From NCBI GenBank assembly GCA_016787085.1, contig JAEUVJ010000053.1, positions 186,001 to 250,000 of the forward strand: DNA of 64,000 nucleotides, given 5' to 3'. This DNA is from Chitinophagaceae bacterium (GTDB lineage Bacteria > Bacteroidota > Bacteroidia > Chitinophagales > Chitinophagaceae). Of the stretch, positions 39,174 through 40,388 are shown one piece after another; positions within the stretch are counted from its first letter, which is position 1, and each line of letters begins with the position of its first letter. The notes beneath the pieces are model-generated. The model ran no database searches. It was given only the letters and a program-made list of their open reading frames with translations, and had not been told where the DNA came from. A program made the translations under genes and the position numbers.

Positions 39174-39593
39174 TTCTGTAATTCAAATAACGGTTTAACA
39201 ATAAGATCTGCATGGCAAGCAGCGATCATACGATCGTTTTCAGGCATTCAAAAGTAAGACTTTGTTGCCGAATGTGTGTGGCGGTGACACATTATCTCTT
39301 ATCGCCGGCACGAATAACTGTTCGGCTGTCAGTTTTTTGTGAACAATCAGCCCGGTACTGTACGAAGATCAGTACCGGAAATGTTTTTTTGTTGTATGGC
39401 AAATAGCTATTTCAGGAGTAGACAGTCTTAATTCTTCGCTATTTTTCACCATATAGAAACATAAGACACATAGTTTGACACGCCTATACGTGGTCTATGG
39501 GGTGAGTTTCAAACTGACCCATTGCCACTGTTTTTTACAATTCCGTGAGCTTTTTGAAAAAGTGTACCTTCCAGTATATGCAAGAATGAACTG
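39174..39593. other. gap before the GxxExxY gene, containing the left repeat arm
   Basis: 420 bases with no gene I can support. The only structured part is at 39449-39474, a copy of the repeat seen after the next gene (ACCATATAG..CACATAG; 21 of 26 bases agree with the copy at 40084). The following 39486-39502 has a related CTATACGTGGTCTATGG. Nothing else stands out. Confidence 0.6.
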
Positions 39594-40010
39594 ATGCAAA
39601 TAACCAAAAAATACCTGGACGAGCTTACCTATAAGGTGATAGGTTGTGCGATAGAAGTGCATAAACACCTTGGACCCGGTTTGCTGGAAAGCGTATATGA
39701 AAAGTGTTTTGTGAGGGAACTGGAGCTAAGGGGTATCCGGTATAAACGACAACTGTGGGTACCACTGGAGTATAAAGGGCTGCAGATTGATACAGAGCTA
39801 CGGCTGGATGTATTGGTGGAGGATATTCTCTATGCTGAACTGAAGTCGAATGAAGGGCTGGCGCCGATCCATGATGCCATTTTATTATCGTATATGAAAA
39901 TGTTGAATAAGCCAAAAGGTATATTGATCAACTTCAATTGCGTCAATATTTTTAAAGAGGGCCAGCGTACATTGGTGAAGGATCTTTTTGCAAAACTCCC
40001 TGATGAATAA
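39594..40010 (+). CDS. GxxExxY-family protein (PD-(D/E)XK_3-like)
   Basis: 138 residues. The family signature GPGLLESVYE is at 29-38, after the amphipathic helix VIGCAIEVHKHLG. The C-terminal part has the nuclease-like core LRLDVLVEDILYAELKSNEGLAPIHDA, with D, E and K placed as in PD-(D/E)XK restriction-like folds. The family is widespread in Bacteroidota, often with variable repeats, and its role is unknown. Here it stands alone between two sets of CACATAG repeats. Recent transfer or selfish behaviour is plausible. No methylase, transposase or defence partner is adjacent. Confidence 0.85.
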   Translation: MQITKKYLDELTYKVIGCAIEVHKHLGPGLLESVYEKCFVRELELRGIRYKRQLWVPLEYKGLQIDTELRLDVLVEDILYAELKSNEGLAPIHDAILLSYMKMLNKPKGILINFNCVNIFKEGQRTLVKDLFAKLPDE

Positions 40011-40026
40011 TAAAGCTATGCGAAAC

Positions 40027-40278
40027 CCTATGTTCCTATGTGTCTATGTGGTTTTGGTTGCTGGCCTCAAGAGATTAATATTTACCACATAGGAACAATA
40101 GGCACATAGACCGCACATAGGATATTAACTTCCATATGATTTCTTATGTTTCTATGTGGTTCTGATCGGGCAACCCGGCTTTAAGAAAATAATATTTACC
40201 ACATAGGAACAATAGGTACATAGACCGGCACATAGATTTTCGGCAGTACTAAGTAAATATCTATGTTTTCTATGTGCC
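40027..40278. repeat. palindromic CACATAG/CTATGTG repeat array
   Basis: Two repeat units plus a fragment fill the 378-base gap after the GxxExxY gene. Unit A: left arm 40027-40052 (ending CTATGTGGT), right arm 40084-40121 (ACCACATAGGAACAATAG...). Unit B: left arm 40141-40160, right arm 40198-40235. A fragment lies at 40259-40278. Arms of each unit are partly complementary and can pair. Their inner spacers (about 30 and 37 bases) differ in sequence but both end TAATATTT. The rest of the gap to 40388 shows a weak TAACTTTA promoter-like motif only. Confidence 0.85.
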
Positions 40279-40388
40279 ACAGCCTGCCCTGACAAAGGAA
40301 GGGTGGTTCAACAGATAAAATGAAACCGGTAAATCCTTTTATTTTTCCAGCCCGTTTCTGCTAACTTTAACCGCTCAAAAGCTGAAAT

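Follow-up and report, generated by a model that had tools for sequence, protein, structure and literature searches.

GxxExxY genes of the PD-(D/E)XK nuclease family are bracketed by dispersed palindromes whose repeat unit follows the protein clade

A 64-kb stretch of a Chitinophagaceae draft genome (the window) contains a small gene of the GxxExxY family surrounded by copies of the word CACATAG, which raises the question of whether gene and repeats belong together and, if so, what kind of genetic element they form. Exact CACATAG, read on either strand, starts at positions 39467, 40036, 40044, 40086, 40103, 40114, 40152, 40200, 40229 and 40270. These 10 words (CACATAG/CTATGTG) bracket the gene across ~0.8 kb (39467–40276), where the first-pass annotation had claimed at least nine, and the remaining four words of the window are isolated. 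Dinucleotide shuffles yield 6.2 words per 64 kb, and hence ~0.08 for a stretch of ~0.8 kb.

The words are organized into palindromes (Table 1). Two downstream units (40063–40113 and 40177–40227) are 90% identical over 51 nt, and in both of them TAATATTTAC adjoins the arm, which agrees with the earlier description of two paired units with a common inner-end sequence. In addition, positions 39448–39466 form a 19-nt inverted repeat, across the gene, with downstream palindrome 2, which has a relative on contig C74 of the same genome. The proposal that the arms can form hairpins held downstream, where both palindromes folded as single-stranded DNA better than shuffled sequences did, but not fully upstream, where the arm pair is degenerate (z −1.7). 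The upstream composite palindrome, whose outer limits we drew by eye, is laid out like some of the dispersed solo copies described below (L017, L023, L028 and L097), and the locus as a whole is mixed in type, the gene being followed by several hairpins. Its neighbors, which we named by eye, are pfkA on one side and, on the other, a gene for a peptidase similar to prolyl oligopeptidase.

Table 1. Palindromes and gene of the window locus, with loci compared in other places and genomes.
Feature	Position or loci	Strand	Details
Upstream composite palindrome	39412..39530		Outer arms GTAGACAGTCTTAATTCTTC / GAGTTTCAAACTGACC around degenerate CACATAG hairpin ACCATATAGAAACATAAGACACATAG...GGTCTATGGGGTGA
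GxxExxY gene, 138 aa, PD-(D/E)XK family 3	39594..40010	+	E32, D72, E82 and K84 intact
Downstream palindrome 1	40025..40120		CCTATGTTCCTATGTGTCTATGTGG ... TTACCACATAGGAACAATAGGCACATAGACCGCACATAG; DNA fold z −2.4
Downstream palindrome 2	40141..40235		TTCTTATGTTTCTATGTGG ... TTACCACATAGGAACAATAGGTACATAGACCGGCACATAG; 51-nt repeat; DNA fold z −3.1
Terminal fragment	40255..40300		TATCTATGTTTTCTATGTGCCACAGCCTGCCCTGACAAAGGAAGGG: arm and flank motif also found in dispersed solo copies
Solo hairpin G000:C57:11171 and orthologous sites in G001–G006	L025, L309, L311–L314, L322
PF05635 loci of relatives and source genome	L099–L128, L332–L391		23S-IVP-like; units such as AGTCAGAAAGTCCGAAAG, GTGAATGGTGAATTGTGAG and AGTATTTAGTATTCAGTA

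The encoded protein matched TIGR04256 (E 1.6e-35, 121.9 bits against a curated cut-off of 35) and PF13366 (E 2.5e-35, 121.8 bits against 22) in two profile libraries. Across 56 sequences E32, D72 and K84 were invariant and E82 was present in at least 90%, making up a complete PD-(D/E)XK active site of the form (E)...D...ExK. These family matches and conserved residues support the earlier view, formed without database searches, that the protein is PD-(D/E)XK nuclease-like. An AlphaFold model (pLDDT 95.4) was closest in the PDB to the Cas4 protein SSO0001 (Foldseek E 0.011, Z 9.1), and further matches (Z ≤8.1) included restriction enzymes and Hjc; these scores were middling or weak. A sequence search of the PDB found no solved relative of the protein, and the matches to S100 proteins that it returned were dismissed as noise.

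The gene had been described as a lone one, which proved wrong: the source genome (G000, a 5.02-Mb draft) holds eight GxxExxY loci, and several of the other seven visibly have inverted repeats of their own, built for example of CACAGAG, CACGGAT, TCTGAAC or GATAAAG units. Bracketing of this kind was general. Flank inverted-repeat scores averaged 15.8 at 52 intact loci of relatives, compared with 9.5 for mismatched flanks, and 17.5 compared with 10.0 in a larger set of 141 GxxExxY loci, whereas 142 ordinary ORFs scored 9.6 compared with 9.4, with only one of them exceeding the 99th percentile. In the CACATAG class the arms closest to the gene point toward each other across it at 22 of the 36 two-sided loci, indicating that the gene fills the loop of a palindrome, and at 6 of the 36 it lies between complete hairpins.

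Beyond the family, we found bracketed GxxExxY genes in Bacteroides finegoldii (CACAGAG), Bernardetia (CACAGAG), Gemmatirosa (CGCAGAG), Treponema (CACGGATT) and an Armatimonadota contig (AACAGGAT), as well as in Sphingomonas, where CGCGAAG arms accompany a gene located between fabD and fabG. The links in other Bacteroidota that the first-pass annotation had mentioned without verification were thus confirmed and reach other phyla; GxxExxY loci elsewhere that lacked repeats would have counted against its proposal, but the loci we examined generally carried clade-specific ones. On a plasmid of Sphingomonas parapaucimobilis (L423, 1465–1910), the 3′ CGCGAAG arm lies inside the end of the GxxExxY coding sequence itself. 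Matches to GxxExxY were found in 8 of 72,556 plasmid records and in none of 50,697 phage records (E limit 1e-5 for both), and we rejected the reading of the gene as plasmid or phage cargo on these counts.

Does the repeat sequence depend on the protein? A scan of genome contigs gave 79 GxxExxY loci, which we split at 53% identity into 47 closer and 32 more distant relatives. CACATAG words occurred within 600 nt of 45 of the 47 closer genes, which came from Bacteroidota and Ignavibacteria, but of just one of the 32 others (Fisher p 1.9e-18); the more distant relatives had words of their own with a related skeleton (CACAAAG, CACAGAG, CACGGAT, CATTAAG, CGCAAAG and others). On a tree of 141 domains, many forks of which are unresolved, the ATAG (CACATAG) label required 6 changes, compared with 38.4 when labels were shuffled (0 of 500 shuffles), and all repeat labels together required 35 compared with 82.7. 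A blind test that used no motif, and from which pairs with homologous flanks were left out, agreed: the share of pairs with self-repeated 6-mers in common rose from 2% to 51% as protein similarity rose. Some of this clustering is due to shared descent; most loci are nevertheless in different neighborhoods. The repeat type therefore follows the GxxExxY protein tree, which is what the suggested comparison of repeats with paralogues had been meant to test.

CACATAG palindromes also occur far from any such gene. Pattern searches, on which all of our genome-wide counts rest, with the tandem CACATAG motif CACATAGNNNCATAG found 29 matches in the source genome and none with the reversed control, which, together with the 10 words found where ~0.08 were expected, rules out chance clustering. 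The matches fall in ~20 places, mostly solo intergenic hairpins, and only the place in the window adjoins a GxxExxY gene; two unlinked solo palindromes align over 195 nt. Solo hairpins (L014, L019, L028, L097, L239, L251 and L257) often lie inside larger palindromes whose different outer arms are themselves conserved (TCAGTTTGAAAT.../...ATTTCAAAC; GTCCGGTTTTGAA.../...TTCAAAAATCGAAAACCGGAC) and have flank motifs such as CTTCGTCAGGGCAGGCTGTG in common. We also observed regular CACATAG arrays with a period of ~120–195 nt (G077:C84:98219-99065, G195:C10:24982-25362 and G195:C18:16999-17596), a layout that differs from that of the solo palindromes; within each array all matches are on the same strand.

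Had the repeats been equally common in relatives without the gene, the proposed association would have been refuted. Among 195 genomes of the family, however, at least two matches to the pattern were found in all 13 that have a CACATAG-clade gene (≥53% identity; mean 24 matches) but in only 24 of the 182 that do not (mean 1.4; Fisher p 5.7e-11). The brackets of the gene itself contribute to the 13 of 13, yet most counts exceed what one locus could hold. One genome (G030, 98% complete) has 57 matches and no GxxExxY match. Together with the 24 genomes it indicates that copies persist, or spread, without the gene; for G030 itself, whose assembly lacks the gene, loss of the gene with persistence of the repeats is possible, as is another mover.

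The richest view of individual copies came from a genome with more than 100 pattern matches (G171). Twenty sampled copies proved to be ~120-bp palindromes of the form TCTATGTTCcTTCTATGTTTCTATGATCCTATGTGGTAAA-(about 40 nt)-TTTACCACATAGGATCATAGAAACATAGAAGGAACATAG. Their ends are sharp and their flanks unrelated, identity being 85% within the arms and 28–30% just outside. The two arms of a copy were 95.9% identical to each other, compared with 91.3% when arms were re-paired among copies (0 of 20,000), and several positions had changed on both arms, suggesting that the hairpin is maintained, with the caveat that arm variants may in part be common to copies by descent. The gene-bearing copy of this genome has the GATCATAG variant, as does a large share of its solo copies; in another genome (G109) the arms at the gene differ from the commonest solo variants. 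Maintained hairpins and a modelled fold that matches Cas4/RecB-type and Hjc-type nucleases at middling scores could also point to a protein that serves the host, either a structure-specific nuclease that has been domesticated or a nucleoid factor, and binds dispersed palindromes which no longer move. We think this very unlikely, because the patchy distribution of GxxExxY (present in 118 of the 195 family genomes), the several paralogues per genome, the decayed copies and the polymorphic sites described next look selfish.

In the pfkA intergenic region, where the window gene lies, two sister genomes (G002, whose pfkA is 96% identical, and G006) have neither a GxxExxY gene nor CACATAG words; a third (G005) has a different hairpin, a fourth (G004) has a frameshifted GxxExxY gene at the locus, and a fifth (G003) carries its CACATAG-clade gene elsewhere, on another contig than the pfkA locus. 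No exact target-site duplication or insertion junction could be resolved at the element-free sites, the intergenic flanks of the empty pfkA sites being too diverged. A solo hairpin of the source genome (G000:C57:11171) is likewise missing from the orthologous site in G002 and G006, while the hairpins at this site in G001, G003 and G004 are of the CACAAAG/CACGAAG type and G005 has a different palindrome. With this hairpin, other types or none at one position, the site looks like a hot spot, or like one at which hairpin types replace one another.

Presence and absence at pfkA, the gene in the loop at 22 of 36 loci and the Sphingomonas gene between fabD and fabG would all suit a homing-endonuclease-like gene that sits inside its own palindromic site, its product cutting empty palindromes and repair copying the gene into them, with the palindromes spreading by other means. 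Homing endonucleases of the PD-(D/E)XK fold exist, for example I-Ssp6803I, and resemble the GxxExxY system in their nuclease fold, so far as the middling structure matches of the GxxExxY model show it, and in that its gene often lies within a palindromic site; the GxxExxY site, however, is a multicopy dispersed family, and there is no intron or intein host. Moreover, homing alone does not explain the strong multiplication of solo copies, their sharp ends and unrelated flanks or the motif tracking the clade, and at several loci, including that in the window, the gene stands beside complete hairpins, outside any loop. We therefore consider this explanation unlikely.

A complication came from a second family. 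Genes for PF05635 four-helix-bundle proteins, which have no nuclease motif, are surrounded by other unit-repeat palindromes, and 50 of 87 exceeded the 99th percentile of mismatched flanks, although the brackets tracked protein similarity more weakly than those of GxxExxY. Because these brackets occur without a nuclease motif, palindrome copying may not need a nuclease, and palindromes may have movers other than the nuclease; there are either two such systems or a common process of palindrome copying in which the cognate proteins differ. Small ORFs of both families might even be passive cargo, riding on palindromes moved by a host or third-party process such as replication slippage or a RAYT or insertion-sequence enzyme, and the copy-rich G030, with no GxxExxY gene, fits that idea as well. 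It is hard to reconcile with the matching of repeat and protein by clade across species, and no RAYT or other Y1 transposase qualified as a partner, 30 Y1 loci of these genomes having only three single CACATAG words near them. Passive carriage is accordingly improbable in our judgment.

Members of PF05635 (S23p) are also the ORFs of 23S rRNA intervening sequences, elements that carry an ORF flanked by inverted repeats and are cleaved by RNase III (PMC4990558). GxxExxY genes share the arrangement of a small ORF between inverted repeats, and the PF05635 genes in the genomes studied here have analogous unit-repeat brackets, but the GxxExxY locus is outside rRNA, its protein family (PF13366) is unrelated and its repeats are dispersed. 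The arms, with their hairpin potential, could by analogy be terminators or RNase III stems around a transcript. We regard this as highly improbable: the unit sequence follows the protein clade, one genome has more than 100 matches elsewhere, and terminators require no common 8-nt unit.

How does the system relate to known mobile repeats? In REP/RAYT systems (TnpA-REP, REPtron, REPIN, BIME), which the first-pass annotation invoked, a gene is flanked by and cognate to dispersed intergenic palindromes, each gene lineage having its own repeat type (PMC6006769). GxxExxY genes match this in being flanked by genome-dispersed, gene-lineage-specific repeats. They differ in the enzyme, which is PD-(D/E)XK (PF13366) rather than HUH/Y1 (PF01797); in the arms, which are tandem ~8-nt units rather than a single stem with a GT[AG]G foot; and in the frequent position of the gene in the palindrome loop. 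There is no HUH/Y1 transposase (PF01797) at the window locus, where the protein matches PF13366 only, and the GT[AG]G foot is absent from the consensus of the 20 G171 copies, which starts with TCTATGTTC and ends with GAACATAG. With two defining features not met, we did not file the system as REP/RAYT; the likeness in logic stands, and membership does not. The short, sharp-ended, non-autonomous palindromes with a rarer gene-bearing copy also recall MITEs and their parent insertion sequences, but the window locus has no DDE, HUH or serine/tyrosine recombinase, its sole gene being that of the 138-aa protein with its putative nuclease fold, and the element has no resolved target-site duplication.

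We favor, with moderate confidence, a selfish gene-plus-palindrome system that pairs each GxxExxY lineage with a palindrome family of its own; the brackets around PF05635 genes are the main reason that we hold a nuclease-driven version of it no more firmly. Beyond the bracketing, clade-specific cognate repeats, discrete dispersed copies, arm covariation, polymorphic sites and intact active-site residues that we observed, we infer that the protein binds and cleaves at its cognate units, and that its nuclease activity drives the spread. The arms are tandem ~8-nt units, often with (TTGAA)CCAC-NN-AG-n-CAC-NN-AG at the outer end (NN being AT in the window), and the PD-(D/E)XK protein would most likely recognize arrays of these units, probably in the form of extruded hairpins or cruciforms, and nick or cut them. 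From such a cut, repair or strand transfer would then carry copies of the palindrome, and sometimes of the gene too, into new intergenic sites. On this model the autonomous copies would be those that hold the gene, whether in their loop or between hairpins, and solo palindromes would correspond to non-autonomous, MITE-like elements. Whether this amounts to a new class of mobile element, in which a stand-alone PD-(D/E)XK protein of ~130 aa without a known transposase partner spreads cognate, clade-specific palindromes of ~8-nt units in several phyla, with a protein-to-unit code (CAC-NN-AG and variants) and a second class around PF05635, we can suggest only tentatively. In the open-licence papers, to which our search was confined, we found no description of a gene–repeat link for GxxExxY, PDDEXK_3, PF13366 or TIGR04256.

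GxxExxY is a widespread protein family that has so far been annotated solely by a sequence motif. The cognate repeat of each clade provides a first testable substrate for it and points to a simple code between protein and DNA. Should the protein indeed move the repeats, the system would be transposition-like while lacking any known transposase, and it would account for many short intergenic repeats of Bacteroidota and other phyla, a large class that has so far had no explanation.
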